Shown: positions 1,896-26,246, numbered from the stretch's first letter. The stretch is 44,099 bases of DNA from a virus (IMGVR_UViG_3300045996_000300:1-44099); one strand, 5' to 3'. The notes: generated from the sequence alone by a model not told the origin. Program-made: numbers and translations.

Positions 1896-1926
1896 TAGGA
1901 TCGTGGTGCTGATACGACATCATTGA

Positions 1927-7025: not shown

Positions 7026-7037
7026 GATGGTTCTCCG

Positions 7038-7232: not shown

Positions 7233-7369
7233 GCCAGGGCCTCCAACGCTTGCCACGCGAATTCGACCACAGGACTGATGTACCGGCCGCGCGTGATGCC
7301 GTCCGGGTTCGTCTTGCGCATGGTGCTATAGCCCTTGGATTCGGCCCACTGCTCGAAGCGTTCGCGCAT
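7229..7369 (-). CDS. Short protein with FEQ-SKG domain
   Basis: This is a 46 aa protein. Its N-terminus (RERFEQWAESKGYS) and end (FAWQALEALA) resemble residues 1-45 of the 305 aa protein encoded just upstream (AFEQFARSKGWS ... WLAWQAREV). It thus seems a stand-alone copy of that N-terminal module, which I recall in many small accessory proteins of Burkholderia and enterobacterial phages. It overlaps both flanking genes by four bases. Function is unknown. Confidence 0.6.
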   Translation of the reverse strand: MRERFEQWAESKGYSTMRKTNPDGITRGRYISPVVEFAWQALEALA

Positions 7370-8286
7370 CACTTGCCCTCCTGCTTGCGGGCCGCGTCGA
7401 CAAACTCTTTTAGCGTGTCGTACTTGGAGCCAAGGAACTCCGCGAGGGCCTGCGAACCTTGTTCTTCGATGTACTGCCACCGCTCGGCGTCCTCGTTCGG
7501 CGCAAGGCGGGCGGCGCGCTCCATGAAGTTGTCGCGGTACATCCACCGCGTGACAACTCGCGCAACTTCGGTCCCGACTTCGCCATCACCTTCCGGGTCG
7601 AAATAGTGAAAGTCAGATGCCGGGATGTCATGCACTTGCACGCCTCCGAAGTCATGCCCTTCCGTGCAGGCGATCACTCGAATTGAGTTGTTGTCGGTCC
7701 AGTCAGGCGAGCGGCCAGTGATCCATCCAGGCGCGGCCACTGCCTGCCGAACCACATGCCGCGCGTCGGGTGCTGAAATGCCGGCATGGTCGTAGCTGTC
7801 GCCGCACTGCGTCAGGCACGCGCAGCCGTTGCCGCACTCAGGCTCGCGCTCGCTGGCGTCCTCGGCCGCATAAGCTGCCTGCCGTTGCGCAGCGAGGACA
7901 ACGAAACGGGAGGACACTCCCTTGCGGAACGTGCCGTTGCCGACCTTCGCGTCAGCGTCCAGCAGCGGCCATTCCGGCTCGGGCTTGCTGGCGGGTTGTG
8001 GGGCTGCGACGAGCATGGCGCGGTAGATCGATCCTGCGTTGTCCTGATCTGCGAGCGTGTCGCCGTTGCAGGCCACTCTGGCGGCATCGAAGAAGGCTTC
8101 CCCGCCGCGAATGAGCATGTCATCGGCCGGCTCCAACGGCACGACCACGACCCCGGCCGGCACCTCACGCGCCTGCCAAGCCAGCCAGCCGGCCTGCGTG
8201 TTCAGCGCCCGGTACTCGCCCGTCTCTCCCTTGTGCAGAAGGGACCAGCCCTTGCTGCGGGCGAACTGCTCGAAGGCGGGGGTCAT
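7369..8286 (-). CDS. Mosaic accessory protein with FEQ-SKG N-terminal module
   Basis: This 305 aa protein is of unknown function. Residues 1-45 are the FEQFARSKGWS ... WLAWQAR module shared with the 46 aa neighbour. The middle is variable and the C-terminal half includes a Cys cluster (CGNGCACLTQCGD). The layout recalls modular Ea22-like early proteins of other phages, where an N-terminal module is joined to changing C-termini. I chose the start at 8286, where ATGA overlaps the preceding gene; the upstream extension to 8388 lies inside that gene. No catalytic motif was seen. Confidence 0.6.
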   Translation of the reverse strand: MTPAFEQFARSKGWSLLHKGETGEYRALNTQAGWLAWQAREVPAGVVVVPLEPADDMLIRGGEAFFDAARVACNGDTLADQDNAGSIYRAMLVAAPQPASKPEPEWPLLDADAKVGNGTFRKGVSSRFVVLAAQRQAAYAAEDASEREPECGNGCACLTQCGDSYDHAGISAPDARHVVRQAVAAPGWITGRSPDWTDNNSIRVIACTEGHDFGGVQVHDIPASDFHYFDPEGDGEVGTEVARVVTRWMYRDNFMERAARLAPNEDAERWQYIEEQGSQALAEFLGSKYDTLKEFVDAARKQEGK

Positions 8287-10289: not shown

Positions 10290-10703
10290 TCAGAACTCCT
10301 GTGCGTCGAGCTTCATCTGCTCGATCGCTTCGTCGGCCGCAATCTCGGCCAGATCGTCGGCGTACGTGTCGGCGTAGCACTTCGCTGCAGCCTGCTCGAA
10401 CTTCGCCAGGTAGCGCAGGCGGTTCTCGGGGAACTCGCACTGGCATGACAGAATCAGTTCGCGCATCACGTTTTCGTCAGTCAGGCACCATTCCATGACG
10501 GTGCGGAAGTCCTCGAACGTCTCGACGAACTTGCCCTTGCTGCTCATCGTGGCGCAGGGCAGCTTCACCGCATCGCCCGACAGGCCCAGCTTGAACAGCT
10601 CTTGCAGACCGGAGTGCAGCTTGGCGCGCTTGTCCGCGACGATCTCGTCACGGGACAGCGCCGCTTCCTCTGCGCGCTCGTAATGTTGGGGGATGTAGGC
10701 CAT
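10290..10703 (-). CDS. Hypothetical early protein
   Basis: This 137 aa protein is acidic at its C-terminus (ADDLAEIAADEAIEQMKLD). It has an N-terminal helix (YERAEEAALSRDEIVADKRAKLHSG) and a middle stretch with FEDFRTVMEWCLTDENVMRELI. No family was recognised. I chose the ATG at 10703 because AAGGAA lies seven bases upstream; the extension to 10754 would run through the promoter-operator element. It is the first gene after that element, so it probably starts a sub-operon within the leftward arm. Confidence 0.55.
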   Translation of the reverse strand: MAYIPQHYERAEEAALSRDEIVADKRAKLHSGLQELFKLGLSGDAVKLPCATMSSKGKFVETFEDFRTVMEWCLTDENVMRELILSCQCEFPENRLRYLAKFEQAAAKCYADTYADDLAEIAADEAIEQMKLDAQEF

Positions 10704-10717
10704 GTCCGTTCCTTGGT

Positions 10718-10762
10718 GTGTTGCGATGACTGCATCATACAACGATTCAATCACCGCAACAC
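10718..10762 (-). promoter_or_regulatory. Promoter/operator with paired CGCAACAC half-sites (leftward)
   Basis: Read leftward, GTGTTGCGGTGA (10762-10751) is followed by TATGAT (-10-like, about 10737-10732) and then TCATCGCAACAC (10729-10718), 15 bases before the start codon at 10703. The two 12-base elements are inverted copies with one mismatch. The same arrangement occurs at 14045-14093 and 21101-21148. The spacer between TTGCGG and TATGAT is only 14 bases, so the -35 assignment is uncertain. It is inferred to be the promoter of the 10703 gene under a phage regulator. Confidence 0.6.
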
Positions 10763-10804
10763 ATACCCGATACGAAAGATCGGGAATTACTTCACGGCCC
10801 GGCG

Positions 10805-11632
10805 TCAGATCGGGCTTTCGTCCTCTTGCTCGGGCTCGGCATCAGATGCCGGCATGTCGATTACGCCGTCCTCGTCAGGCGCAGGCGCTGCCTCGGCGAT
10901 CTTCGACAGGCGGCTCGGTCGCTTGCTGCCGGCAGGGGCTGTGGGCGCCTCCTGGGCGGGCGCCGCGGGCTGCTCGGTGGGCGGCATGAACAGCTCGTCG
11001 TCCTCGTGGAGCGCGCCGTCGAGGTCCGTGCTCATTGGGAGGCGCTTCGCGTGCCGGCGGACGACAGTCTTCTTCGCCATTTCGGAGTAGTCCGTTTTCC
11101 ACGGGCCGCCATTGCCGGAGCGGCTGCGCTTGCGGATCGCCTCGATCTCGTCGACGTTCATGAACTCGCGCGACTTCTCGCCATCCTTCAGCGTGACGAT
11201 CGAGTACGCGCCGACCAGCGCGCCGCGATCACGCATCGCCGGTTTGTGCACGATGCGCTCGCTGTCGCCCAGTTCGTAATCGAACGAGTCGTTCTCGAAC
11301 ACGGCTTGAACGGACCAGGTGCTGATCTCGCCCGAGTTGCGAACGAGTTTCATAATCCCGGCCACCATCGGCATGAACTGCGCCTGGTTGCCAAACGACA
11401 CGATCGCCCCCTCGCGCCCGTCCGGCAGCAGCCCGACCTGTGCGGCCCGAGTGCAGGCCATGAACAGCGTGCGCCGATCAGACTTGAGCAGGTCCGGGTT
11501 CGATTGCAGGCTCGTCATCACGACCCGCTGGAACTTCTCCACGCTGACATGCGGCGGAAGGGCTTTCTTGAACTCCGGCGTCATCTTGGTGAGGGCGCCT
11601 CGGACTTCGTCAATTACTGCGATTTGGGACAT
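10805..11632 (-). CDS. recT: RecT-family single-strand annealing protein
   Basis: This 275 aa protein is of the RecT/Redbeta class, which anneals complementary single strands during recombination-dependent replication. Family features include the conserved opening KMTPEFKKALPPHVSVEKFQRV and MTSLQSNPDLL. Then follow ACTRAAQVGLLPDGREGAIV, the MPMVAGIMKLVRNSG segment and EMAKKTVVRRHAKRLPMS near residue 190. The last 60 residues are a Pro/Glu-rich disordered tail, which often binds host factors. The partner exonuclease (YqaJ type) is encoded upstream in the same operon, separated by an HNH gene and a tiny membrane-protein gene. Confidence 0.92.
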   Translation of the reverse strand: MSQIAVIDEVRGALTKMTPEFKKALPPHVSVEKFQRVVMTSLQSNPDLLKSDRRTLFMACTRAAQVGLLPDGREGAIVSFGNQAQFMPMVAGIMKLVRNSGEISTWSVQAVFENDSFDYELGDSERIVHKPAMRDRGALVGAYSIVTLKDGEKSREFMNVDEIEAIRKRSRSGNGGPWKTDYSEMAKKTVVRRHAKRLPMSTDLDGALHEDDELFMPPTEQPAAPAQEAPTAPAGSKRPSRLSKIAEAAPAPDEDGVIDMPASDAEPEQEDESPI

Positions 11633-11642
11633 GTGGGTTCTT

Positions 11643-11780
11643 TCAGAGTTTGCTGATCGTGCAAGCGATCGCGAGGGTGGTGATCACGTAGGTGGCGAAC
11701 ACGGACGTGTTCGGCGCGACGAGCAGCGCAGTCGATGCGAGCCACATGGCGCTGAGAACGATGGATTGAGGGGTGGTCAT
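11643..11780 (-). CDS. Tiny two-TM membrane protein
   Basis: This is a 45 aa hydrophobic protein with two likely membrane helices (about residues 5-21 and 26-42) and almost no loops. It lies between the HNH gene and recT. The ribosome site is weak (GAAAG). The element GGCAACACG, similar to the operator half-site seen at other phage promoters, lies 10-20 bases upstream of the ATG at 11780. Function is unknown. Confidence 0.45.
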   Translation of the reverse strand: MTTPQSIVLSAMWLASTALLVAPNTSVFATYVITTLAIACTISKL

Positions 11781-11803
11781 GTTTGCTTTCGTGTTGCCGG
11801 GGC

Positions 11804-12250
11804 TCACGCGCGCCCGGCTGGCGCTTTTTTGCTTCTGGCGTCTTGCGCCTGCTGCTTCGAGCATGTCCGGCATCGCCGATACCCTGTTCCGAGGTACGTG
11901 TTTTCCTCGTTCAGCTCGTGACCACTCTTGCAATGCGTTCTGCCAGCGAATGGGCCGCGCCGCTTCTTGTGCATGTCGTCCATGTTTTCTTGTTGCGTGC
12001 CAAGGAACAGATGGTGCGGAGCCACACATGCCGGGGTGTCGCATGAGTGAAGCACGTGACGCCCCGCCCTTTCCTCTCGCCGAAACAGATCCCACGAGAC
12101 ATGCGTCGCTCGCGCGATTCCCCGTTGCCTTGTGAGCCGAATTTTCCCGTAGCCGTCTTGATTGACGCAGCCGGTCCATAGCCAACAGCCCGTAAGGGCT
12201 TCCGGCGAAACCTTCTCATTGAATCGCTCGATCAGTGGTCTGCTCTTCAT
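11804..12250 (-). CDS. HNH homing-type endonuclease
   Basis: This is a 148 aa free-standing HNH nuclease. CWLWTG (22-27) and GYGKI are the usual N-terminal signature of this subfamily. The HNH core runs from HVLHSCDTPACVAPHHLFLG to the TQQENMDDM segment, with His68, Cys70/Cys75 and His79/80, then Asn89. A second Cys cluster (CKSGHELNEENTYL ... CRTC) follows. Such genes spread by cutting unoccupied alleles. It is inserted between the exonuclease and recT, which are usually adjacent, and its ATG overlaps the exonuclease stop. No intron or intein is implied because both flanking genes look intact. Confidence 0.85.
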   Translation of the reverse strand: MKSRPLIERFNEKVSPEALTGCWLWTGCVNQDGYGKIRLTRQRGIARATHVSWDLFRREERAGRHVLHSCDTPACVAPHHLFLGTQQENMDDMHKKRRGPFAGRTHCKSGHELNEENTYLGTGYRRCRTCSKQQAQDARSKKAPAGRA

Positions 12251-13200
12251 CTCTTCCCCTTCACCGCTGTGATGCGCATGCTTCTGAAGCCGGCCCTCTT
12301 TCCGACAAGCTGACCAACCATTTCCGGGGTGATGGTGGTCCCGGGGCTCTCAGCGACCATCGACGCCGAGATCTTCCAGCCTTGACCCAGCACCGCCTCG
12401 GCGTCACCGATCTTCTCGAACAGGCGTGCTTTGCAGACCTTCGCGGTTTCATCGGCCTCGTCGGCGGCGAACTTCGCTTGCTTGTACTCGGCCACCAGCG
12501 CAGCGATATCGGCGTCGCTCGACGCGTCGAGGATCTTCCCCGGCTTCGCGTACTGGTTCATGCGAATCACGGCTTCGGCGTCTGCCGGCATCACGGGCGC
12601 CGGCTCGTTGCCTTGGTCGACGTCGCGCCAGAACTGGCGGATGCGTGCGCGCAGGGCGGCGATCACTGCCTCGTCGCGCGGGCGCTCGATCACGACCTCG
12701 CGATTGCCACCGATCAGCGCGCCGATGAACGACCGGCCGAAGCCTGAGACGAGCATCTGATGCTGCACCTGCACCTCGATGTGCGTCGGCGCCTGGACAT
12801 CGTCGTCCTCGACCAGCCAGCCATCGCGGTACGCCAGGTAATCGACGTTCTTGATTTCCAGGTGCGCCGGCCCGTCCGGGTGGTTCAGGATCATGAAGTC
12901 AAACGACGACCCGATGCGCTCGTCCGGCAGGCGCATGTATTCTTTCATCGGGCGGATCTGCCAGCCGCGTTCCTCGGCGATGCCGGCGGCGATCGCGGCC
13001 TCGAGCCGGTTCCCCCACTTCATGCGGTCGTTCGACTGGAATGCCGCCGCCTCGCCCGAGCGCTTGCGGTGGTACAGCTCGAACTGCGTGACGTACGGCG
13101 ACTCGCCGAACAGCGCCGCCGATTCCGTGCTGGTCACGTCGCGCTGGCGCAGCGACAGCCACTGCTCCTGATTCTCGGTGTGGATAACTTCGGTGGTCAT
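12247..13200 (-). CDS. YqaJ-type (lambda exonuclease-like) recombination nuclease
   Basis: This 317 aa protein is of the PD-(D/E)XK superfamily, YqaJ viral recombinase group. It is predicted to resect double-stranded ends 5' to 3' and load RecT. Visible motifs are EQWLSLRQRDVTSTESAALFG (substrate-binding start), WGNRLE (62-67, catalytic Glu67), GSSFDF (97-102, metal-binding Asp101) and LEIKN (114-118, Glu115-x-Lys117). A further QVQHQML helix lies near residue 145. The last third is a helical extension. It is part of the leftward operon with recT. Confidence 0.9.
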   Translation of the reverse strand: MTTEVIHTENQEQWLSLRQRDVTSTESAALFGESPYVTQFELYHRKRSGEAAAFQSNDRMKWGNRLEAAIAAGIAEERGWQIRPMKEYMRLPDERIGSSFDFMILNHPDGPAHLEIKNVDYLAYRDGWLVEDDDVQAPTHIEVQVQHQMLVSGFGRSFIGALIGGNREVVIERPRDEAVIAALRARIRQFWRDVDQGNEPAPVMPADAEAVIRMNQYAKPGKILDASSDADIAALVAEYKQAKFAADEADETAKVCKARLFEKIGDAEAVLGQGWKISASMVAESPGTTITPEMVGQLVGKRAGFRSMRITAVKGKR

Positions 13201-13400
13201 TGTGGATATCTCGGTTTGCAGGCGACGTCGTACAGGCCGGCGGCGAGGTTTGCGTTAAGCGCGGTATCGCGCAGGCGGGTGATTTCGCCGGCCAGCCACA
13301 CGGTGACCGCCAGCAGCTCGTCGTGATCCAGATCCTCGAGATCCTGGCCGAACACGCGAACCCCTGACGGCCCTGTCAGGCGCCACTCGTCGGGGATCAT
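13197..13400 (-). CDS. Small hypothetical protein
   Basis: This is a 67 aa acidic protein. Its centre (GQDLEDLDHDELLAVTVWLAGEITRLRDTALNANLAAGLYD) looks like two helices, similar in style to dimerising adaptor proteins. It overlaps the exonuclease start by four bases and the preceding gene by four bases. No family was recognised. The ATG at 13400 is preferred; the longer frame to 13535 would overlap the neighbour. Confidence 0.5.
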   Translation of the reverse strand: MIPDEWRLTGPSGVRVFGQDLEDLDHDELLAVTVWLAGEITRLRDTALNANLAAGLYDVACKPRYPQ

Positions 13401-13591
13401 CGTGCGGCTCCCAGCAGCGGAATACACAGCGTCGCCAGGAATGCAACCATGACGATTGCTGCGACAGCCCACAGATCCGACCGCGACGGCATGCTGTGAC
13501 AGTGGCACGGCTTGCGGCCCTGGTCGCATGCGCAAAACTGCTGGTCACTCAGCGTGAACGCGGCTTCGCGTTCGTTACGTGGCTCGCGCAT
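13397..13591 (-). CDS. Small C-tail-anchored membrane protein
   Basis: This 64 aa protein has an N-terminal hydrophilic half containing Cys/His residues (FCACDQGRKPCHCH, residues 19-32; a possible metal site). The C-terminal membrane helix (about 41-60) reads DLWAVAAIVMVAFLATLCIPLLG. The topology suggests a tail-anchored early protein of unknown role. Confidence 0.5.
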   Translation of the reverse strand: MREPRNEREAAFTLSDQQFCACDQGRKPCHCHSMPSRSDLWAVAAIVMVAFLATLCIPLLGAAR

Positions 13592-13593
13592 GG

Positions 13594-13782
13594 TCAGCCC
13601 CTCCAGGCGAACAGGACGCCCAGCGTCGCGCCGATGGCGACAGCGAGGGCAATGTCCAGCCAGCGCGGCGCATGCCGGTGCTGGCGCTCGAAGCGCTGGA
13701 CAGCGGCGCCGTATTCGGCCGACGTCTGATACCAGCGCGGGGTGCGGGTGTTGGGGCGGGTGAGGAAGTCGGGGTTAGACAT
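13594..13782 (-). CDS. Small membrane-anchored early protein
   Basis: This 62 aa protein has an N-terminal hydrophilic part (residues 1-41) and a C-terminal membrane helix (LDIALAVAIGATLGVLFAW). The ribosome site GGAGAA precedes the ATG at 13782 within a leader (ATAACGGAGAACC) that also precedes the winged-helix gene at 7025. Function is unknown. The adjacent downstream gene has the same soluble-then-TM layout. Confidence 0.5.
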   Translation of the reverse strand: MSNPDFLTRPNTRTPRWYQTSAEYGAAVQRFERQHRHAPRWLDIALAVAIGATLGVLFAWRG

Positions 13783-13793
13783 GGGGTTCTCCG

Positions 13794-14024
13794 TTATACG
13801 GTTGCCACCGGAATGCACTGCGCCACCTTGATCGCGGCCTTCAGCGACTCGACCAGGACACCAGCCTCTGCCGGCGTCATCGAGAACGAGAGCGACAGCG
13901 AGCCGCTGTGCTGCGACAGCGTGACGAGTTCGCAGCGCTCTGCGGTCTGCAGCTCGATGCGATTCGCCAGCACCTCGAGCCGATTCGACCTGGTGAAGTT
14001 GTATACATAGCCAACGGTTTCCAT
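13794..14024 (-). CDS. First leftward early gene, unknown function
   Basis: This is a 76 aa protein. An N-terminal beta-rich part (METVGYVYNFTRSNRLEVLANRIELQTAE) is followed by SLSLSFSMTPAEAGVLVESLKAAIKVAQ, a strand-helix arrangement. It is the first gene downstream of the leftward control promoter, the position of immediate-early regulators in other phages, but no HTH is visible. The ATG at 14024 has GGAAGGAAAG upstream. No family was recognised. Confidence 0.55.
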   Translation of the reverse strand: METVGYVYNFTRSNRLEVLANRIELQTAERCELVTLSQHSGSLSLSFSMTPAEAGVLVESLKAAIKVAQCIPVATV

Positions 14025-14044
14025 GCTGCTTTCCTTCCGTGTTC

Positions 14045-14093
14045 GTGTTGCGATGATTGCAATTGTGGAGCATTCAGCCGCCGAACGCAACAC
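14045..14093 (-). promoter_or_regulatory. Leftward early promoter with paired operator half-sites
   Basis: Read leftward: GTGTTGCG (14093-14086) overlaps a -35-like TTGCGT. After a 17-base spacer comes CACAAT (-10-like), followed by TCATCGCAACAC (14056-14045) near the expected start of transcription. The half-sites are inverted copies that flank the core promoter. This promoter would drive the whole leftward operon from 14024. Confidence 0.65.
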
Positions 14094-14113
14094 CTATTTT
14101 TCGTCTGCGCTGT

Positions 14114-14142
14114 TTGCAACGTGTTGCGAAGAACCGTACAAT
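14114..14142 (+). promoter_or_regulatory. Rightward early promoter
   Basis: TTGCAA (14114-14119), a 17-base spacer and TACAAT (14137-14142) form a good sigma70-type promoter starting near 14149, upstream of the HTH gene at 14171. A third half-site, GTGTTGCG (14121-14128), lies in the spacer. A regulator bound there would block this promoter. Confidence 0.65.
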
Positions 14143-14170
14143 CGGGCCGACTCAACTACCGGCCATAGGC

Positions 14171-14425
14171 ATGGAAAACCCGAAGACCCCGCCCGGCAGT
14201 ACGCCGGCAGACAAAGCGATTGCCGCCTTCGGTGGCGTTCGCGCAACGGCGCGCGCTGCGAAGCGCAACGGCTCCAGCGTCTCGCGCTGGCGCAAGCCGA
14301 TCGAAGAAGGCGGCACCGGCGGGCGCGTGCCCAGCTCGGTGCAGGAAACTCTGCTGCTCGAGGCCCGCAAGCGCGGGATCGACCTGACGGCCGAGGATCT
14401 GATCGTTCGTACATCAACCGACTAG
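14171..14425 (+). CDS. Small HTH regulator (Cro/YdaS-like)
   Basis: This 84 aa protein is probably the DNA-binding switch protein. Residues 13-42 (ADKAIAAFGGVRATARAAKRNGSSVSRWRK) fit a Cro/YdaS-type helix-turn-helix: GGVRATARA as first helix and turn, SVSRWRK as recognition helix. The C-terminal part resembles the tail of Cro-like proteins (PSSVQETLLLEARKRGIDLTAEDLI). It is the first rightward gene behind a promoter carrying the repeated half-site, so autoregulation and control of the dispersed operators is the simplest proposal. No CI-like partner was found on the opposite strand. Confidence 0.65.
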   Translation: MENPKTPPGSTPADKAIAAFGGVRATARAAKRNGSSVSRWRKPIEEGGTGGRVPSSVQETLLLEARKRGIDLTAEDLIVRTSTD

Positions 14426-14450
14426 CGGCCTCACGGCCCCGGGGAACATC

Positions 14451-14564
14451 ATGGACATTCGAGACGAAGAAGGCGACGGCCTGGGACTTGGCCGAGCGCT
14501 CGTATATTTGGTGCCGATCTCACTCGGCTTCTGGCTCGGCGTCATCTGGTACTTCATGAAATGA
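14451..14564 (+). CDS. Tiny single-TM protein
   Basis: This 37 aa protein has an acidic N-terminus (MDIRDEEGDGLG) and one membrane helix (ALVYLVPISLGFWLGVIWYF). The start has CCGGGGAAC upstream, and the stop overlaps the next gene's ATG. The role is unknown; it may target the host membrane early in infection. Confidence 0.5.
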   Translation: MDIRDEEGDGLGLGRALVYLVPISLGFWLGVIWYFMK

Positions 14565-14755
14565 ACGACGAACGAAACAACCCAGCCGAACCTGGTTGGC
14601 GCCATGTCGGCGCCGGGTCGCTGGTTACGCGCCTGTGCTTCGGGTGCCAAACGCCACGGCTGACGCTGGGCGGCAAAGGAATTGGGGTGCGCTGGCGGTG
14701 CCGGGCGTGTCATGAGAAGAAGGCCGAACGTGCAGCTGCGACCCAGGCAAGTTAA
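14561..14755 (+). CDS. Small zinc-ribbon protein
   Basis: This 64 aa protein has a classic pair of Cys knuckles: CFGC (residues 26-29) and CRAC (47-50), separated by a basic/glycine-rich loop. It is predicted to bind one zinc. It overlaps the preceding gene by four bases and the helicase start by about 40 bases. It may bind DNA or RNA, or recruit the helicase. No closer family was recognised. Confidence 0.6.
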   Translation: MNDERNNPAEPGWRHVGAGSLVTRLCFGCQTPRLTLGGKGIGVRWRCRACHEKKAERAAATQAS

Positions 14756-16160
14756 AGCCATCGCGGACATTGCATCCGCGTATCAATCTGGTTTCACTGC
14801 ACCAGTGCTGGTCAGCCCAACCGGCAGCGGCAAGACATTCACGTCTACGCACATCATCCGCCGCGCTCTAGCCAAAGGCAAACGCGTCTGGTTCATCGCC
14901 CACCTGAAAGAAATCCTCCAGGCCACGTCGCGCGCGCTGCTGCGTGAGCGCATCCCGCACGGGTGGATCGCTGCAGGCCAGCTTGGCGATCGCCGGCAGG
15001 CGGTACAGGTCGCGATGGTGCAAACCCTAGTGCGCCGGCTCGAACGGTTCCAGCCGCCCGACCTGATGATCGTGGATGAGGCGCACCTGGCGGTCGCGAA
15101 CACGTATCAGGAGATTTTCAAGTGGGCGAAGGCTGGTCCGAAATACTACGAGCCAGGGGGCTGCAAGCTGCTGCACCTGACGGCCAGCCCGCAGCGGCTC
15201 GACGGGCGCGGCCTGGGCGAGATCGCGGACACGCTGATTCCGACGTGCTCCACTCAGGATCTGATAGATGAGGGCTTGCTGGCGCCGATCCGCTACTACG
15301 CCCCGACCGGCGTGGATCTGTCGTCCGTCAGCACACGCGGCGGCGAGTACGCGCAAGACGAGCTCGCGGCGCTGATGGACAAGCCGAAGATCACCGGCAG
15401 TGCCGTGAACGAATACCGCAAGGTCGCCCACGGCCGGCCCGCAGTCGCGTTCTGCGTGTCCATCGTCCACGCCCAGCACGTAGCCGAGCAGTTCCGCGCT
15501 GCGGGGTATCGAGCGGTTGCGATCTCCGGCGAGTCGGACCCGGTCGAGCGGGACGCTGCGCTGCAGGGCCTGCAGAACGGGCAGCTTGACGTCGTCTGCA
15601 ACTGCGCGCTGTGGGTTGCTGGCGTGGATGCGCCTGCGGTTGCCTGCATCATCATGCTCGCGCCGACAAAGTCGATTGTCAAATACCTGCAGTCCATCGG
15701 GCGCGGGTTGCGCACGCATCCAGGCAAGGATTGCTGCGTGGTGCTGGATCACGCCGGAAATCTGGCGCAGTTCGGGCCTCCCGCGATCGAGCGCGAGTGG
15801 TCGCTTGACGCCACGGCGAAGAAGAAATCGGCGCAGAAATCCGAGGTGCCTGTGAAGCAGTGCCCGGCGTGTTTCGCAACCGTGTTCTCGGCGGCGACAC
15901 ACTGCTCCTGCGGGCACGAGTTCCAGGTACAGGCGCGCGTGATCGAGGAGGTCGACGGCGACCTGGCAGAAGTCGACATGAAGGCCGTAGCGAAGGCGAA
16001 GCGGCAGGAGCAGGGGCGCGCGCAGACCGAGGAGGATCTGATCACGATCGCTCGAGGTCGAGGCATCCGGCGGCCCGAGCTGTGGGCGCGGCACGTACTG
16101 CGCGGGCGCGTCGAAAAAGAACGTCGCGAGGCGTTGCGCATCGAAGCTTTGCTGCGATAA
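14712..16160 (+). CDS. DEAH-box superfamily 2 helicase
   Basis: This is a 482 aa ATP-dependent helicase. Motif Q-like LRPRQVKAI is followed by Walker A SPTGSGKT (35-42), DEAH (122-125) and motif III LTAS (about 153-156). The second RecA lobe has AFCVSIVHAQHVAEQF, then VVCNCALWVAGVDAPAV and the arginine-finger motif QSIGRGLR. A C-terminal zinc ribbon follows (C384-x2-C387 ... C398-x-C400), then a helical tail. I start at the ATG at 14712; a TTG at 14682 is possible. It probably unwinds DNA or recombination intermediates during phage replication. Confidence 0.9.
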   Translation: MRRRPNVQLRPRQVKAIADIASAYQSGFTAPVLVSPTGSGKTFTSTHIIRRALAKGKRVWFIAHLKEILQATSRALLRERIPHGWIAAGQLGDRRQAVQVAMVQTLVRRLERFQPPDLMIVDEAHLAVANTYQEIFKWAKAGPKYYEPGGCKLLHLTASPQRLDGRGLGEIADTLIPTCSTQDLIDEGLLAPIRYYAPTGVDLSSVSTRGGEYAQDELAALMDKPKITGSAVNEYRKVAHGRPAVAFCVSIVHAQHVAEQFRAAGYRAVAISGESDPVERDAALQGLQNGQLDVVCNCALWVAGVDAPAVACIIMLAPTKSIVKYLQSIGRGLRTHPGKDCCVVLDHAGNLAQFGPPAIEREWSLDATAKKKSAQKSEVPVKQCPACFATVFSAATHCSCGHEFQVQARVIEEVDGDLAEVDMKAVAKAKRQEQGRAQTEEDLITIARGRGIRRPELWARHVLRGRVEKERREALRIEALLR

Positions 16161-16168
16161 TCGCATCA
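16134..16168 (+). promoter_or_regulatory. Possible internal promoter giving a leaderless message
   Basis: TTGCGC (16134-16139), a 16-base spacer and GATAAT (16156-16161) overlap the helicase stop. Transcription would begin about seven bases later, on the A of the next ATG (16168), which has no ribosome site. TCGCATCA follows the -10 box, as it does at other sites in this genome. Confidence 0.4.
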
Positions 16169-16416
16169 TGAGCCAGTGCGAATGCAGGCGGGGTCGATCG
16201 GTCACATTGCTGACGGGCGAATCGGTGTGCACGTACTGCCCTCAGTGGAGGGCCGAGTGCCTGAAGCGTGACCAGTCGGCGCGCGTGGTGCTCGGTATCG
16301 GGTCGGTAGCCAGGCGACGCGCCTGGATCGACGACTACGGGGCGCAGTTCGGGCCTGAAGCCCAGCGCCGTTTAGAAACTGTCGTGCGTTCGCTGTGGGC
16401 GGCGCGCGGGGAATAG
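16168..16416 (+). CDS. Small Cys-rich hypothetical protein
   Basis: This 82 aa protein has Cys4, Cys6, Cys21, Cys24 and Cys31 in its N-terminal third (SQCECRRG ... VCTYCPQWRAEC), probably a zinc site. An Arg/Glu-rich helical C-terminus follows. No Shine-Dalgarno sequence precedes the ATG, so initiation may be coupled to the helicase stop eight bases upstream or be leaderless. Function is unknown. Confidence 0.55.
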   Translation: MSQCECRRGRSVTLLTGESVCTYCPQWRAECLKRDQSARVVLGIGSVARRRAWIDDYGAQFGPEAQRRLETVVRSLWAARGE

Positions 16417-16425
16417 GGGAAGTTT

Positions 16426-16929
16426 ATGTTCGTGAATGGTCGTGCATATCCTGGTGGGCCGCGCTTCGTCGACTCGCTGGCCGGCGCCTGCGGCTCATGC
16501 GAAACCGACTGCGGCGCGTGCAACGTCGAGCGATCGGCGAATCACATGCGGCGGGCGGATGACTGGCCGAAGATTGAGGATCCGGCAGTGGGCCCGGCCG
16601 CCATCGTCGCGGACACCGTCGAGCAGTGGCTGAACGGCGAGCCGCCCACCGTCACGCGCGCCCAGGACATCCTCACCGCTGCTGGCGGCCACATGCAGGC
16701 GCGCGCTGCCACGTACGACAGCCAGGACGGCGAGCGCAGCATGGGCGATACCGTCACCGCGTTCAACGCGATCACCGGCCGCGCGCTCACCGAGTCTGAA
16801 GGCTGGCTGATGATGGCGCTCCTGAAGATGGTGCGCAGCCAGCAGCGAGACGAGCCGCACCGGGATTCGCTCGAGGATCTGGTGGCTTACGGGGCGTTGT
16901 TCGCCGAGGCTCGGATCGCGGGGCGCTGA
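16426..16929 (+). CDS. DUF6378-like protein
   Basis: This is a 167 aa protein. An N-terminal Cys motif (GACGSCETDCGACN, residues 20-33) precedes a helical domain with AQDILTAAGGHMQARAATYDSQDGERSM, TVTAFNAITGR and ESEGWLMMALLKMVRSQQR, ending in HRDSLEDLVAYGALFAEA. The latter half matches what I recall of DUF6378, a common phage domain with an all-alpha core resembling nucleotide pyrophosphohydrolases. Activity is unproven. AGGGGA precedes the ATG. Confidence 0.65.
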   Translation: MFVNGRAYPGGPRFVDSLAGACGSCETDCGACNVERSANHMRRADDWPKIEDPAVGPAAIVADTVEQWLNGEPPTVTRAQDILTAAGGHMQARAATYDSQDGERSMGDTVTAFNAITGRALTESEGWLMMALLKMVRSQQRDEPHRDSLEDLVAYGALFAEARIAGR

Positions 16930-16930
16930 T

Positions 16931-17344
16931 ATGAAAGAAGCCGACCTGATGCGCCTCTTGATGGTCGAGGCGTCCAAGCTGGGCGCCCGACTGTTCCGCA
17001 ACAACGTCGGCACCGGTCTCGTCGTCCGGGGCTCAAGCCCGCAGCACCGGGAGGCGATCCTGAAAGCCTGCCAGGCCACAGCGGAGCGCCTGGGCGGGTC
17101 GGCGGCCCGGATCAACTTCGGGCTCGTCGAGGGCAGCGGGGACTGCATCGGGTGGCGTCCTCGCGTCATCACACAAGCCGACGTCGGGACGACGATCGCT
17201 CAGTTCGCCAGCGCCGAAGTCAAGACGGCTAAGGGCCGCTCGTCGCCGACACAAGTTCGCTGGCGGGATGCCGTGAACTCTGCCGGCGGCGCGGCAACCG
17301 AGGTCCGCTCCGTCGAGGACATGGCGCAATTCCTGCGCTCGTAG
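16931..17344 (+). CDS. VRR-NUC domain nuclease
   Basis: This 137 aa protein is a stand-alone VRR-NUC nuclease of the PD-(D/E)XK superfamily, a group linked with Holliday-junction and flap cleavage. Visible features are FRNNVG near residue 22, GSGDCIGW (about 68-75, metal-binding Asp) and EVKTAKGR (about 96-103, E-x-K catalytic pair). QVRW and the closing GGAATEVRSVEDM are the conserved C-terminal element. It lies in the replication/recombination operon after the helicase, so a role resolving branched phage DNA is likely. Confidence 0.88.
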   Translation: MKEADLMRLLMVEASKLGARLFRNNVGTGLVVRGSSPQHREAILKACQATAERLGGSAARINFGLVEGSGDCIGWRPRVITQADVGTTIAQFASAEVKTAKGRSSPTQVRWRDAVNSAGGAATEVRSVEDMAQFLRS

Positions 17345-17363
17345 GAATTTTCTGTCACCGGTG

Positions 17364-17392
17364 GTGCGCTCATCGCATCACCGCGCTATACT
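17364..17392 (+). promoter_or_regulatory. Candidate promoter before SSB-like gene
   Basis: TATACT (17387-17392) is a good -10 box. The hexamer 17 bases upstream (GTGCGC, 17364-17369) is poor. The spacer contains TCATCGCATCAC (17370-17381), one mismatch from the TCATCGCAACAC operator found at five other places. Binding of the same or a related regulator within the spacer is plausible. Confidence 0.45.
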
Positions 17393-17434
17393 GATCCGAC
17401 GCGCCTATCTCGGGCGCGCAACGAAAGGACAGTG

Positions 17435-17728
17435 ATGGCGTACGACAACACGAACAGCGGGATCATCAAGCGCAACGACAAGAAGCGCGAGGGCAAGAAA
17501 GACCCGGACTACAACGGCTCCATCGACGTGGAGGGCGTCGAATACTGGGTGGCCGCCTGGATCAACGAAGGACGCCCGGGCAGCAAGCTCGAAGGTCAGA
17601 AGTATTTCAGCGTGAAGCTGACCAAGAAGGACGACCAGCCGGCAGCAGCGCCCGCTGCGGCTCCGAAGCCTGCGGCTAAGCCGGCGCCGACCGGGTTCCC
17701 CGACATGGACGACGACATCCCGTTCTGA
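17435..17728 (+). CDS. SSB-like protein with acidic DDDIPF tail
   Basis: This is a 97 aa protein. Residues 1-68 are a short beta-rich domain (NTNSGIIKRNDKK ... DYNGSIDVEGVEYWVAAWINEG ... KYFSVKLTKKD), consistent with a small OB-like fold. A Pro/Ala linker follows, then the acidic end MDDDIPF, which matches the C-terminal tip of bacterial single-stranded DNA-binding protein that recruits replication and repair enzymes. It is likely to bind ssDNA or compete for SSB partners. The ATG at 17435 is preferred over a GTG at 17432 for its spacing from AAAGGA. Confidence 0.7.
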   Translation: MAYDNTNSGIIKRNDKKREGKKDPDYNGSIDVEGVEYWVAAWINEGRPGSKLEGQKYFSVKLTKKDDQPAAAPAAAPKPAAKPAPTGFPDMDDDIPF

Positions 17729-17737
17729 GGCTGAACC

Positions 17738-17944
17738 ATGAACGACGAAAAATTCTGGATCATCTGGAACCCGCGCGGGCACGCGCCAACGCAGCCGCAC
17801 AGCAGCTACGAAAGCGCTGTAGCCGAGGCGCAACGTCTCGCCAAGGGCAATCAGGGGCACGTTTTTTACGTGCTTGAGGCGACCGAGGCATTCGAGTGCG
17901 TCTCCGTGAAGCGCACGGTCCTGCTGCATCCGATGCCGTTCTAG
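17738..17944 (+). CDS. Small hypothetical protein
   Basis: This is a 68 aa protein. A compact alpha/beta layout is suggested: strand FWIIWNP, helix SSYESAVAEAQRLAKGN, strand HVFYVLEATEAFEC, strand VKRTVLLHPMP. Short proteins of this pattern (IIWNP..HSSYESA..EA..LA) are common in phages and have no assigned role that I know. It starts nine bases after the SSB-like gene. Confidence 0.6.
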   Translation: MNDEKFWIIWNPRGHAPTQPHSSYESAVAEAQRLAKGNQGHVFYVLEATEAFECVSVKRTVLLHPMPF

Positions 17945-18001
17945 CCATCTCGTTACCCGGGGCCGCCGCGCCCCCACTTCGCAGCGCGGCAGGAGAAACA
18001 C

Positions 18002-18259
18002 ATGGAAATCACGAACTACGAGGGCGTGTCCTACCGGGACGACCGCCTGCGCAAAGCCGCCCGCATTGCATCCGCAATCCTCGGGCTCTCCCCCAAGCAA
18101 CTCGATCGACTCGTCATGCGCGTGCATGACCACAAGGGCGAACTCACGGTCTACTGGCTCGACGAGCCGACCGACGCCGGCAAGCTCGCGTTCACCGCTG
18201 CCTGGACGGAGTGCGGCGAGCACAGCGTGCGGCACAACGCGCCTGTCGTCGCATCATGA
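18002..18259 (+). CDS. Small hypothetical protein before primase
   Basis: This is an 85 aa protein. A basic N-terminal helix (DDRLRKAARIASAILGLSPKQLDRLVMRVHDHKG) is followed by strands (ELTVYWLDEP, AFTAAWTEC). Its stop overlaps the primase start as ATGA. It may assist primase loading, but that is guesswork from position. AGGAG lies upstream of the ATG. Confidence 0.55.
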   Translation: MEITNYEGVSYRDDRLRKAARIASAILGLSPKQLDRLVMRVHDHKGELTVYWLDEPTDAGKLAFTAAWTECGEHSVRHNAPVVAS

Positions 18260-20793
18260 GCGCCGACTTCAAGGGGCTTGCAGCCGAGCTGCTGCAATCG
18301 TCGGAGCGCCATGTCTCGAGCTGGCTGTCGGCCGGCAAGCGACAGGGCAAGGAATGGGTCGTCGGCAGTCTGTCGAACGAGCCCGGCACCTCGCTCTCGA
18401 TCAACCTGAATAACGGACGCTGGGCCGACTTCGCATCCGGGGAAACCGGTGGCGATCTGATCGACCTGTACGCCGCAATCCACGGGATCTCGATGATCGA
18501 CGCATACAAGGAACTCGGCGGCGAGGTGAACCCGCGCGCGCCGCGCCCGATGAAGCCGCGCACACCGGCGCCGGCCCCCGAGCCAACCCGCCGCGTCGTG
18601 TCGCCGGTCCCTGAGTCTGTAGCCCTGCACGACTGCGCGCACCCGAAGTTCGGCCGCCCCGTGCGTGTGTGGCAGTACATGAACGAGCACGGCGAGCTGC
18701 TGGGCTACGTCGCCCGGTATGAGCCGGCAGGCGAGCGCAAGCAGATCGTCCCTTGGACGTACGACGGCGAGCGCTGGGGCATGGGCCAGTGGCCGGAGCC
18801 GCGCCCGATGTACGGCCTGCAGCGGCTTGCCGAAAAACCCGACGCGCCGGTGCTGCTCGTGGCCGGCGAGAAAGCCGCCGACGCTGCGCACGCACTGGCC
18901 GGCAAGGTGTACGTCGCCATGACCTGGCCGGGCGGCGAGATGGCCTGGCAGAAAACCGACTTCAGCCCGATCTATGGCCGCAAGGTGCTGATCTGGCCTG
19001 ACGCTGACGCGACCGGCGCGAAGTGCTCCGCTGCGCTCGGCGCGCATCTGCTCGAGCACTGTCCCGAGGTGAAAATCCTGGACGTGGCCGACCAGGCGGA
19101 CGGCTGGGACGCCGCAGACTGCACGATGACCTGGCCGGAGTTCCGCGCCTGGGCGAAGCCGCGTGCTGCGGTCCTCGCACCGATTCCGGCCGCCGCTCGT
19201 CAGAAATCGCCTACACTTCAATCACACGTCAATGCGGGTAGTGATGTGGCGCCGCAGTCGGCCACTGCCTCGCCGAACAACTCCGCAAGCGCCGGCCCTG
19301 TGCACTCCTTTCCACGGGAGGCCGGCGCCGATCAAACCCCGGGGCCTGGCGCCTCGGGGGGCGAGGTGATCGCGCTGCCGGCCAAGCGCAGGCGCCCAGC
19401 GCCCGCCGATGACGTCTTCATCTTCTCGTCAACCCCACTCGAGACCGCTGCACTGTTCCAGGCGAACCTGCCTGATGATGGCAAGGTGCTGTTCTGGCGC
19501 GGCGAGTTCTACACCTGGAACGGCCACCGCTACGTGGTTCGGGACCAGGTGTACCTGCACCAGCAGCTTTACTCGTTCATGTCGTCGTGCCTGACGCACA
19601 AGACGGACCCGAAAACCGGCGATAAGGAAGTCGTCGCGTTCAGCCCGAACAAAGCTCACATCGAGAACGTCATGCACGCGCTGCGCGCCGTGTGCTTCAT
19701 CGATCTGCCTGAGCCTCCGAGCTGGATCACCGCTGAGCCCGGCGACGTGCCTGCCGGCGAGATCATCGCGTTCCGTAACGGGTTCCTGCACGCGCCGACG
19801 CGCCGCATGATGCCATCCGACCCGCGCCTGTTCGTCATCTCGGCGCTCGACTTCGATTACGACGCCACGGCGCCCGCGCCGACCGAGTGGCTGCGCTTCC
19901 TGTCCGGGCTCTGGCCGGCAGACCCGGAGAGCATCGAGACGCTGGGCAGCGTGTTCGGCTACATGCTGACGGACGACACCAGCCAGCAGAAAGCGTTCAT
20001 GATGATCGGGCCGCCCCGCTGCGGCAAAGGCACTATCCTGCGCGTGCTCGAGAACATGGTCGGCCAGCACAACCGGGTTAGCCCCTCGCTCGCCAGCCTG
20101 GGCACGCAGTTCGGATTGCAGCCGCTCGTGGGCAAGCGCGTCGCGATGATCTCCGACGCGCGACTGTCGGGCAAGACGGACCAGCAACCGATCGTCGAGA
20201 ACATCCTGCGCATCACCGGCGAGGACAGCCTGACGGTCGACCGCAAGTTCCTGGGCTCGTGGTCCGGCAAGCTTTCCACCCGGTTCATCATGGCATCGAA
20301 CGAGACGCCAGCGTTCAGCGACGCGTCCGGCGCGCTCGCAAACCGATTCGTGATGTTCAAGTTCTCGCACTCGTTCCTGGGCCACGAGGATCACGGCCTG
20401 ACCGTGCGCCTCCTCAAAGAGCTCCCCGGCATCGTGCTGTGGGCACTGGACGGCCTGCAGCGCTTGCAGGCGCGCGGATACCTTGCGACCCCCGAATCAG
20501 GGCGCGAGCTGGCCGACGAGATGCGCGAGCAGGCGAGCCCGATTGCGGCCTTCGTGGCCGAGAAGTGCGTCGTCCATCCCGATGCGGCGGTCGACCGAAA
20601 CGACCTGTTCGCGGTCTGGAAGACGTGGTGCCAGGCTCAGGGGATGGAGCATCCGGGAACGATGATCACGTTCGGGCGTCGCCTTTCGGCCGCGTTCCCG
20701 GGCATCGGGCGCAGCCAGCCGCGCGACGGTGGCACAAGGTTGAACCTGTACTCCGGTGTGAGGCTTCAGCGTGTGACGGAGCAGTTCGATTGA
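18256..20793 (+). CDS. Primase-helicase (Toprim plus D5/P4-type SF3 helicase)
   Basis: This 845 aa replication protein starts at an ATG overlapping the previous stop. Residues 1-100 contain GRWADFASGETGGDLIDLYA, the CHC2-like N-terminal part without its zinc cysteines. The Toprim domain has the catalytic Glu in LLVAGEKAADAA (Glu205) and the DxD in IWPDADATG (Asp249, Asp251). A disordered linker spans about 310-385. The C-terminal half is a D5/P4-family superfamily 3 helicase: Walker A GPPRCGKGT (585-593), followed by ISDARLSGK and the sensor segment IMASNETPAFSDASGALANRFV. It probably primes and unwinds at the phage origin, perhaps the repeat-rich stretch directly downstream. Confidence 0.92.
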   Translation: MSADFKGLAAELLQSSERHVSSWLSAGKRQGKEWVVGSLSNEPGTSLSINLNNGRWADFASGETGGDLIDLYAAIHGISMIDAYKELGGEVNPRAPRPMKPRTPAPAPEPTRRVVSPVPESVALHDCAHPKFGRPVRVWQYMNEHGELLGYVARYEPAGERKQIVPWTYDGERWGMGQWPEPRPMYGLQRLAEKPDAPVLLVAGEKAADAAHALAGKVYVAMTWPGGEMAWQKTDFSPIYGRKVLIWPDADATGAKCSAALGAHLLEHCPEVKILDVADQADGWDAADCTMTWPEFRAWAKPRAAVLAPIPAAARQKSPTLQSHVNAGSDVAPQSATASPNNSASAGPVHSFPREAGADQTPGPGASGGEVIALPAKRRRPAPADDVFIFSSTPLETAALFQANLPDDGKVLFWRGEFYTWNGHRYVVRDQVYLHQQLYSFMSSCLTHKTDPKTGDKEVVAFSPNKAHIENVMHALRAVCFIDLPEPPSWITAEPGDVPAGEIIAFRNGFLHAPTRRMMPSDPRLFVISALDFDYDATAPAPTEWLRFLSGLWPADPESIETLGSVFGYMLTDDTSQQKAFMMIGPPRCGKGTILRVLENMVGQHNRVSPSLASLGTQFGLQPLVGKRVAMISDARLSGKTDQQPIVENILRITGEDSLTVDRKFLGSWSGKLSTRFIMASNETPAFSDASGALANRFVMFKFSHSFLGHEDHGLTVRLLKELPGIVLWALDGLQRLQARGYLATPESGRELADEMREQASPIAAFVAEKCVVHPDAAVDRNDLFAVWKTWCQAQGMEHPGTMITFGRRLSAAFPGIGRSQPRDGGTRLNLYSGVRLQRVTEQFD

Positions 20794-20795
20794 TG

Positions 20796-20815
20796 GCACA
20801 GGCTATTGCCTGTGC
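20796..20815. repeat. Perfect 8-bp hairpin after primase gene
   Basis: GCACAGGC (20796-20803) and GCCTGTGC (20808-20815) form a perfect stem with loop TATT, three bases after the primase-helicase stop. No T-run follows. It contains the GCACA unit repeated through this stretch, so it may be an origin element as easily as a terminator. Confidence 0.6.
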
Positions 20816-20888
20816 TGGTGCAGGATTGGCACAACTTATGTAACAGAAAATTCTTGCGTAAGCTGTTGATTTTATTATCATTTTCTAT

Positions 20889-20992
20889 TGGCACAACCTG
20901 GTGCAAGATAAATAGGTAGAGCTACACACACACACACACACACACATAAAGCTATTGGCCGGTCACAAATTTGCCTGCACCAGGTTGTGCCA
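20889..20992. repeat. 17-bp perfect inverted repeat pair
   Basis: TGGCACAACCTGGTGCA (20889-20905) recurs as its exact reverse complement at 20976-20992, with 70 bases between the arms. The AC microsatellite lies between them. Each arm is itself nearly palindromic (TGGCAC ... GTGCA). The exact match over 17 bases is far above chance in this span. Confidence 0.85.
20924..20946 (+). repeat. AC dinucleotide microsatellite
   Basis: Twenty-three bases of uninterrupted alternating A and C (about 11 units). Such tracts are rare in phage genomes, tend to slip in replication, and can adopt left-handed DNA when supercoiled. It sits between the arms of the 17-bp inverted repeat. Confidence 0.95.
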
Positions 20993-21100
20993 GAGAAAAA
21001 GATGATTGAAATCATGTAGTTGCGTTGAATCATGCCGGTGCCAAGCCTGTGCCAGGCTAAAACCGAGCCAGTGCCAGTCTGATTCCGAGGGTAAACACCA

Positions 21101-21148
21101 GTGTTGCAATCCTCGCAGCGATGGGCTATGATTCAATCATCGCAACAC
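21101..21148 (+). promoter_or_regulatory. Promoter with paired operator half-sites
   Basis: TTGCAA (21104-21109), a 17-base spacer and TATGAT (21127-21132) form a strong promoter. GTGTTGCA (21101-21108) overlaps the -35 box and TCATCGCAACAC (21137-21148) covers the expected start site. The layout equals that of the leftward promoter at 14045-14093; the two share CAATCATCGCAACACG exactly. It drives the small gene at 21162 and probably those behind it. Confidence 0.7.
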
Positions 21149-21161
21149 GGAGCCAGACACC

Positions 21162-21275
21162 ATGCGCTACCACCTCCCCCAACCCGAAGTCACCTACCTC
21201 GACCATGCCTTCGGATGGTTCATGTGGGACCAGGCAGTCGCCGAACTCGACTCCATCATCGCAACACGCGGCTAA
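21162..21275 (+). CDS. Small protein behind operator promoter
   Basis: This is a 37 aa protein, MRYHLPQPEVTYLDHAFGWF and onward, ending AELDSIIATRG. It starts 14 bases after the operator copy at 21137. Its last codons (SIIATR) are themselves formed by a further operator copy, so coding and regulatory sequence coincide. No Shine-Dalgarno stronger than GGAG is present. The leader GCAACACGGAGCCAGACACC resembles those of the 21838 gene. No function was recognised. Confidence 0.5.
   Translation: MRYHLPQPEVTYLDHAFGWFMWDQAVAELDSIIATRG
21256..21267 (+). promoter_or_regulatory. Operator copy inside coding sequence
   Basis: An exact TCATCGCAACAC lies at the 3' end of the 37 aa gene and about 30 bases before the start of the secreted-protein gene. 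No clear -10 or -35 accompanies it. It may be a binding site that adjusts the downstream gene, or a relic of duplication of the leader. Confidence 0.45.
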
Positions 21276-21298
21276 CCCCGCACAACCGGACAACCACC

Positions 21299-21766
21299 AT
21301 GCGCGCTCACCTCATCGCCGCCGCCATCCTCGCAGTCACCGCGCTGCCGGAAATCGCCCAGGCCGACACCTTCGGCGTCCACCTGTTCTCGCGGCACGAA
21401 TCCGCAACGCACGAACTCACCCGCCCTGACGGCACGACCTATCGCGAGAACTACAACAACCGGAACTTCGGCGCGTACTTCATCGCCGACTCAGGCCTGA
21501 CCCTGGGCGCGTACCGCAACAGCTACGGGTTCAACACGGCATACGCAGGCTGGACCTGGCAAGGCCCCACCTTCGGCCCGCTGCAGCCCGCAGTCACGAC
21601 CGTGCTGGCGACCGGATACAGGCGCGTTCATGGCGTCGGGGTACTCCGCCCCATGTTGCTGCCGTCCGTGCGCCTGGAAGGCCCCGCAGGCGTCTCGCTG
21701 CGGTACTTCATCGGGCCGGCGAAGGGAGGGGTGTTTCAGCACATCGCGATTGAGCGGAGTTTCTGA
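21299..21766 (+). CDS. Secreted protein, possible outer-membrane beta-barrel
   Basis: This is a 155 aa protein with a clear Sec signal peptide: basic start, hydrophobic core AAAILAVTALP, cleavage after AQA at residue 22. The mature part alternates short aromatic strands (TFGVHLFSRH, FGAYFIAD, LTLGAYRNSYGFNTAYAGWTW, VSLRYFIGP) and ends in a terminal Phe (IERSF), as expected for an outer-membrane barrel. A phage-coded protein exported to the envelope suggests receptor masking, superinfection exclusion or surface modification. None of these is shown. It is flanked by small genes with operator-bearing leaders. Confidence 0.65.
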   Translation: MRAHLIAAAILAVTALPEIAQADTFGVHLFSRHESATHELTRPDGTTYRENYNNRNFGAYFIADSGLTLGAYRNSYGFNTAYAGWTWQGPTFGPLQPAVTTVLATGYRRVHGVGVLRPMLLPSVRLEGPAGVSLRYFIGPAKGGVFQHIAIERSF

Positions 21767-21811
21767 GCGATCCGACCGCCCGAATCACGCGCACACCACC
21801 CGCACCCCTGC

Positions 21812-21825
21812 TATCATCGCAACAC
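21812..21825 (+). promoter_or_regulatory. Operator copy with -10-like box
   Basis: TATCAT (21812-21817, -10-like) overlaps an exact TCATCGCAACAC (21814-21825). The ATG of the next small gene follows 13 bases later. No -35 box was found 16-18 bases upstream, so promoter status is uncertain; the operator match itself is exact. Confidence 0.5.
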
Positions 21826-21837
21826 GGAACCACAACC

Positions 21838-21948
21838 ATGTCCACCCACGCCTACTTCCTCCTCGTCGACTCGCTCGGCTTCCTGCTGACGATCGTTGCC
21901 CCGGCTGCGTACTTCCTGTGGCAGGATCGCACCCCGCGCCGCCGCTGA
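21838..21948 (+). CDS. Tiny single-TM protein
   Basis: This 36 aa protein has one membrane helix (about residues 5-28, YFLLVDSLGFLLTIVAPAAYFL) and a basic tail (WQDRTPRRR), giving an N-out/C-in orientation by the positive-inside rule. The leader (CGCAACACGGAACCACAACC) is much like that of the 21162 gene. It may act on the host membrane. Function is unknown. Confidence 0.5.
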   Translation: MSTHAYFLLVDSLGFLLTIVAPAAYFLWQDRTPRRR

Positions 21949-21960
21949 TGGGAGTACGCT

Positions 21961-26177: not shown

Positions 26178-26201
26178 CGCTGCTCCTGCAGCCGCGGCCT
26201 G

Positions 26202-26246
26202 TTGCATTCCGCGCGCCGTTCGCGCATGATGTGGTTATCGCATCAT
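26202..26246 (+). promoter_or_regulatory. Promoter of the small-gene cassette
   Basis: TTGCAT (26202-26207), a 17-base spacer and CATGAT (26225-26230) resemble the other phage promoters (TTGCA-N17-YATGAT). ATGATG (26226-26231) and CATCAT (26241-26246) are inverted around the expected start site, and TCGCATCA follows the -10 region as at other sites. It drives the gene at 26264. Confidence 0.55.

Follow-up and report, generated by a model that had tools for sequence, protein, structure and literature searches.

In phages phiC31, with its conserved inverted repeats, and P1, with its C1 operators, one phage repressor acts at many operators around the genome. The stoperators of mycobacteriophage L5 are asymmetric sites, present in 20-30 copies per genome and mostly located away from promoters, whose repressor has been described as monomeric (PMC6550527, PMC9283540). 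Here, we describe a dispersed set of predicted operators in a stretch of viral DNA of 44,099 bases, which we refer to as the window and which encodes RecT, a RecE-like exonuclease, a helicase, a primase, a terminase, and major head and tail proteins. We consider it quite probable that a 12-base repeat noticed in this DNA comprises the stronger arm and the greater part of the spacer of a 21-bp dyad, and that this dyad is bound by the Cro-family protein encoded at 14171-14425. The window carries an identical 127-bp repeat at its two ends (1-127 and 43973-44099), which probably reflects closure of a circular genome by the assembler.

A preliminary description of this DNA had reported five exact copies of the 12-mer TCATCGCAACAC, at 10718-10729 and 14045-14056 on the minus strand and at 21137-21148, 21256-21267, and 21814-21825 on the plus strand, together with a one-mismatch partner, TCACCGCAACAC, at 10751-10762. 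We recovered all of these, as well as an extra one-mismatch copy that had been overlooked, TCTTCGCAACAC at 14121-14132 on the minus strand, within the cro promoter. The view that five copies exceed chance also held, as any 12-mer attained five copies in only one of 200 dinucleotide shuffles and, CA microsatellite aside, no other 12-mer in the window does so. The GTGTTGC half-sites proposed to accompany the repeat are present at 10756-10762 (-), 14087-14093 (-), and 21101-21107 (+). At 10.7, 14, and 21 kb, the start of the half-site is separated from the arm of the 12-mer by 38, 42, and 41 bp, close to the 37-41 bp originally given. Two of them show the proposed overlap with a -35 box well, that at 14 kb (TTGCGT-17-CACAAT) and that at 21 kb (TTGCAA-17-TATGAT); at 10.7 kb the overlap is poor, the TTGC being only ~14 bp from TATGAT. 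Similarly, most copies stand at promoters, as suggested, with the exception of those at 21256, located where a 37-aa ORF ends and for which we found neither a partner half-site nor a promoter, and at 21814, for which no recognizable -35/-10 pair was found; the standing of these two copies as operators is uncertain. Several other searches were of little help: megablast against named phages gave no match, an exact 15-mer scan of viral contigs returned 53 matches, approximately the chance level by a rough estimate, and was uninformative, and nearly all of the small leader genes through whose homologues we tried to trace the leaders are without relatives. The exact 12-mer is missing from recT relatives, which contain one-mismatch copies only, because the spacer part drifts.

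Judged by its sequence, the 12-mer is not the unit; it combines one arm with five bases of the spacer and represents the best-conserved half of a mirror-symmetric dyad with the consensus RTGWTGC-N7-GCAWCAY, and there are therefore more predicted sites than the 12-mer reveals. With the arms GTGTTGC/GCAACAC and spacers of 0-15 tried in the cro upstream regions of 37 relatives, 50 matches (at least 10 of 14 arm bases) were found at spacer 7 and 23 or fewer at any other; the core TGC-N7-GCA occurs 19 times in cro upstream regions, window included, against 5.9 expected. The clearest case is GTGTTGC-tttttac-GCTACAC, which agrees at 13 of 14 arm bases, is carried by eight representative relatives in their cro promoters, and is the counterpart of the window's site at 14121..14141. 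We built a weight matrix from 42 instances in the relatives' cro upstream regions, selecting this training set with a seed palindrome, excluding the window, and testing on independent sequence. At a threshold of 14, the matrix identified ten sites in the window, eight of them outside genes, though only 4.6% of the window is intergenic by our own gene list. The top rank was 10718-10738, the other sites being those that start at 16149, 26226, 21128, 14045, 17361, 21101, 10742, 1903, and 27504. The matrix recovers the promoters of the preliminary description and adds predicted operators at 1.9, 16.2, 17.4, and 26.2 kb (listed below), while the 12-mers at 21256 and 21814 fall below threshold. In 500 column permutations that preserved the dyad, the mean was 0.36 matches (maximum 3), 0.07 of them intergenic, and none equaled the real matrix; altering the spacer left 1-3 matches, with most of the signal gone. 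We did not count the site at 27504 as an operator, as it lies inside a coding region. Operator-like matches with a TATAAT-like center occur at equivalent positions within a small conserved gene in the window (27504-27524) and in two relatives, G015 (36856-36876) and G018 (17250-17270), and may reflect a coding constraint or an internal promoter.

Predicted operators, 12-mer copies, and the candidate binder in the window, with weight-matrix scores.
Feature	Coordinates	Strand	Arms and spacer	Position and context	Matrix score
Predicted operator	1903..1923	+		Upstream of tail-fiber/spike gene 1958-4324; TAGAAT -10 just downstream	17.1
Operator	10718..10738	-	ATGATGC-agtcatc-GCAACAC	On -10/+1 (TATGAT) of leftward promoter, -10 at operator position -1; holds 12-mer 10718-10729; 15 bp from start codon of 137-aa gene 10290-10703, downstream of recT	23.6
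Second operator	10742..10762	-		Same 10.7-kb promoter, near -35, register imperfect; center 24 bp off; contains one-mismatch 12-mer partner	17.5
Operator	14045..14065	-	CAATTGC-aatcatc-GCAACAC	On -10/+1 of main promoter toward exonuclease-recT (leftward); -10 CACAAT at operator position -2; relatives have an equivalent in the leader	19.5
Operator	14073..14093	-	One strong arm, GTGTTGC 14087-14093	On -35 (TTGCGT) of leftward promoter; -35 at operator +3, -10 at +26; center 28 bp from that of 14045..14065	Below threshold
Operator	14121..14141	+	GTGTTGC-gaagaac-CGTACAA	Inside rightward cro promoter TTGCAA-17-TACAAT	11.1
cro	14171..14425	+		84-aa Cro-family HTH protein; candidate binder	
Predicted operator, lower confidence	16149..16169	+		Helicase stop/next start, 57% within helicase ORF; internal GATAAT	23.5
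Predicted operator	17361..17381	+		On -35 of GTGCGC-17-TATACT; directly after nuclease gene 16931-17344	18.3
Operator	21101..21121	+	GTGTTGC-aatcctc-GCAGCGA	On -35 (TTGCAA) of 21-kb promoter TTGCAA-17-TATGAT	18.0
Operator	21128..21148	+	ATGATTC-aatcatc-GCAACAC	On -10/+1 of 21-kb promoter; holds 12-mer; center 27 bp downstream of that of 21101..21121	21.8
One-armed 12-mer copy	21247..21267	+		3' end of ORF 21162-21275, upstream of gene 21299-21766	9.5
12-mer copy	21805..21825	+	TGC-N7-GCA core	Upstream of ORF 21839-21949	9.6
Operator	26226..26246	+	ATGATGT-ggttatc-GCATCAT	On -10/+1 of TTGCAT-17-CATGAT, register as at 21.1 kb; upstream of gene 26264-26725	22.7

Set against promoters called solely by consensus match, the dyads occupy two registers. 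In the first, an arm supplies the -35 (at operator +3, with the -10 at +26), as at centers 14083, 17371, and 21111 and, less exactly, at 10752 and 1913. In the second, the left arm completes the -10 (at position -1/-2), as at centers 10728, 14055, 21138, and 26236. Both registers are found at four promoters (10.7, 14.0, 21.1, and 26.2 kb), with centers 24, 28, 27, and 27 bp apart; the partner half-site on the -35 at 26.2 kb, CTGTTGC at 26199-26205, was picked out by eye. In total, the predicted operator occupies six or more of the promoters of this phage. The regulator had been proposed to bridge across each promoter, a feature that now seems unneeded: each pair consists of two adjacent predicted operators, one on the -35 and one on the -10/+1, and the 37-41 bp reported between half-sites corresponds to the full outer extent of the pair. 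Moreover, centers are 26 bp apart at the left promoter of phage L115 (G015) and 34-35 bp apart in Paracoccus phage Pben1 and Sinorhizobium phage phiLM21, and this variation, together with the 24-28 bp in the window, argues against one fixed bridge. By analogy, the tandem pairs appear lambda-like.

The neighborhood of the 21-kb promoter has two further features. Following the primase gene, the segment 20793-21060 is AT-rich and contains a (CA)n run flanked by inverted copies of GGCACAACCTGGTGCA; it is possibly an origin or a regulatory region. Just after the 21256 copy, 21299-21766 encodes a 155-aa protein, a possible moron, that begins with a signal-peptide-like sequence and weakly matches a PagP-type lipid A acylation protein in PHROG (E=4e-5).

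RecT/Cro relatives share the locus, with a small HTH gene divergent from the exonuclease-recT side, and the presence of the motif in the homologous leaders of related phages, which the preliminary description had set as its test, was borne out. Pben1 (ATGGTGC-gataatc-GCATCAT, matrix 24.4) and phiLM21 (GTGGTGC-gataatc-GCTACAA, matrix 23.0), both outside the training set of the matrix, carry an operator between CI and Cro, and both have operator pairs upstream of leftward genes too. Among 11 records scanned whole, five (G001, G006, G008, G010, and G011; 39-54 kb) have strong sites confined to the surroundings of cro, which shows that dispersal is not a general rule; dispersed sites are also present in the collinear G012, G013, G015, G018, and G020 and in the more distant G019. 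A stricter search, in which GTGTTGCRRTRA occurred once each in 18 of 22 records, had suggested that dispersal is unique to the window, an idea refuted by the dispersed sites that the two-armed matrix finds in collinear relatives. After the nuclease gene, a predicted operator is present in all six genomes compared (the window and, with matrix scores of 17.3-24.1, G018, G013, G020, G012, and G019), while G006 has none there. Before the tail-fiber gene, sites with TAGAAT/TAAGAT are found in G018 (14.3), G013 (14.3), and, weakly, G015 (11.1), with no site in G020, G012, or G019. After recT, the window, G013, and G015 have an operator, and G018, G020, and G012 do not. Beyond the cro region, then, one position is strongly conserved and two are partially conserved. 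At the 16149 junction, no site in G015 or G018 attains the matrix threshold, hence the lower confidence we assign to it; this site and those at 21256 and 21814 have no support from conservation or clear promoters.

The predicted operators are most likely bound by the phage's own Cro-type protein, whose gene is part of the divergent immunity locus and has dyad operators beside it. Its AlphaFold model (pLDDT 86) has a helical Cro-like fold, and its best Foldseek matches are Xfaso-1 Cro (3bd1), the N15 Cro-operator complex (6on0), and P22 Cro (1rzs), with the XPH1 hybrid also near; Foldseek probabilities are 0.91-1.00 but E-values are weak (best 0.024; none at or below 0.001). A profile match to XPH1 Cro has E=0.0043, and the Pfam P22_Cro cut-off is not attained by the protein (15.5 bits vs 30.2) or by its homologues, which are annotated as Cro-like or cro and adjoin CI in Pben1 and phiLM21. 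Operators occur in records with and without an HTH_3 match, in each case beside the Cro-like gene, which makes Cro the common factor of a sample that is biased, having been gathered via Cro or RecT. The HTH proteins at 6546 and 9684, previously put forward as further candidates, are unlikely binders, as we found no homologue of either in the RecT/Cro relatives, several of which have operators. As for the proposal that one regulator controls both arms and the 21-kb cluster, the dispersed operator set does link them, and we infer that the 14171 protein is the likely regulator.

From the co-occurrence of operators with Cro and the known biology of CI/Cro switches, we propose that a Cro dimer would bind each operator and block RNA polymerase. 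Its targets would include the leftward (recombination) promoter, cro's own promoter, which would amount to autoregulation, and satellite promoters near 1.9, 10.7, 17.4, 21.1, and 26.2 kb, and these promoters would be turned down as Cro rises. In temperate relatives, the CI repressor probably shares the sites. No HTH_3 repressor was detected in the window with the Pfam model, which a diverged or unrelated repressor could escape, and no tyrosine integrase was detected there either; HTH_3 repressors are present in G013, G015, and G018, and tyrosine integrases in G013 and G015. The window therefore has no detectable CI-type (HTH_3) repressor or tyrosine integrase, as a complete CI/Cro lysogeny switch would, and Cro is the sole known candidate ligand here. 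In L115, at 6968-8225, a CI-like repressor (202 aa, HTH_3) lies between cro and a homologue of the window's 13794 gene; the window has the same neighbors around cro, without the CI gene. It is possible, and we suggest it tentatively, that in phages that lack CI and integration or have lost them Cro alone serves as a genome-wide timing repressor, acting through dispersed dyads and reaching promoters of the structural region.

Alternatively, the dyads could be mainly CI operators, relics of a lost lysogeny module that keep the phage sensitive to the CI of a resident related prophage and have little function of their own. The location of operators between CI and cro in L115, Pben1, and phiLM21, the HTH_3 repressors of G013 and G018, and the absence of an HTH_3 repressor or tyrosine integrase match in the window would all fit such a history. 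However, relics should decay, and records without an HTH_3 match over cut-off (G001, G006, G008, G010-G012, G019, and G020) retain cro operators, so CI is not needed to explain them; G012, G020, and G019 retain the nuclease-gene site as well. The five exact 12-mers in turn suggest recent spread or selection, and we regard this explanation as unlikely.

A role as roadblocks to elongating polymerase, as in L5, might apply to some copies, above all those at 21256 and 21814. All five 12-mers share one orientation relative to transcription and lie 13-31 nt upstream of start codons, the two just named have no recognizable promoter, and Cluster A stoperators are likewise dispersed, oriented, and mostly off promoters (PMC6550527). 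Since the unit is a dyad rather than an asymmetric site and most matrix-supported sites overlap promoter elements, we consider such a role improbable. Still less probable is a conserved 5' leader that would work at the RNA level (AUCGCAACAC...GGA ahead of the start codon), serving translation or RNA binding. In its favor, most copies of the 12-mer lie close upstream of the ribosome site, and 21136-21155 and 21813-21832 are 95% identical (19/20) beyond the operator, into the ribosome-site region; against it, the dyad reaches upstream of the predicted start site and occurs on -35 boxes and inside the cro promoter, and its spacer-7 symmetry is what would be expected of a DNA-bound dimer. The identity between these two segments also suggests a duplicated promoter-leader cassette. 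Finally, the window has no significant excess of GTGTTGC by itself (13 vs 8.5 expected), but every control, whether of repeats, matrix, position, or permutation, argues against chance or compositional repeats, making this a scarcely credible explanation for the whole set, while single weak sites such as 27504 may be due to chance.

Our searches of an open-access library turned up no account of this operator; the paper on Pben1 names the CI and Cro genes, and its main text does not contain the terms "operator" or "binding site" (PMC6536676). For a group of podovirus-like phages known mostly from metagenomes, our findings provide a concrete operator that can be predicted from sequence, and relatives with and without CI offer a natural comparison in which the role of Cro without a lysogeny repressor becomes testable, as do sensitivity to the immunity of related prophages and the spread of operators from the switch to distant promoters.

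Among known systems, the locus most resembles the CI/Cro switches of lambda, P22, and N15, with a gene for a Cro-fold protein that diverges from the early left operon, tandem operators, dyads at the cro and left promoters, and, in relatives, CI beside cro. The lambda sites differ from the arms and 7-bp spacer described here. The closest solved structures to the 14171 model are the Cro proteins of Xfaso-1, XPH1, and N15, at ~15-33% identity and weak E-values. Dispersal and orientation across the genome recall the L5 stoperators, the closest published example of dispersed sites that we encountered, from which these sites differ in being dyads with a 7-bp spacer, most of them on promoter elements; the repressors and site sequences of phiC31 and P1 also differ from those of this phage. 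In contrast to the classical switches, operators here also extend to satellite promoters at distances of several kb, one of them ahead of the tail-fiber gene, in a phage with no detected CI or tyrosine integrase. The switch itself is therefore of a known kind, and what is unusual is the spread of its operators to satellite promoters and their persistence without a detected CI.
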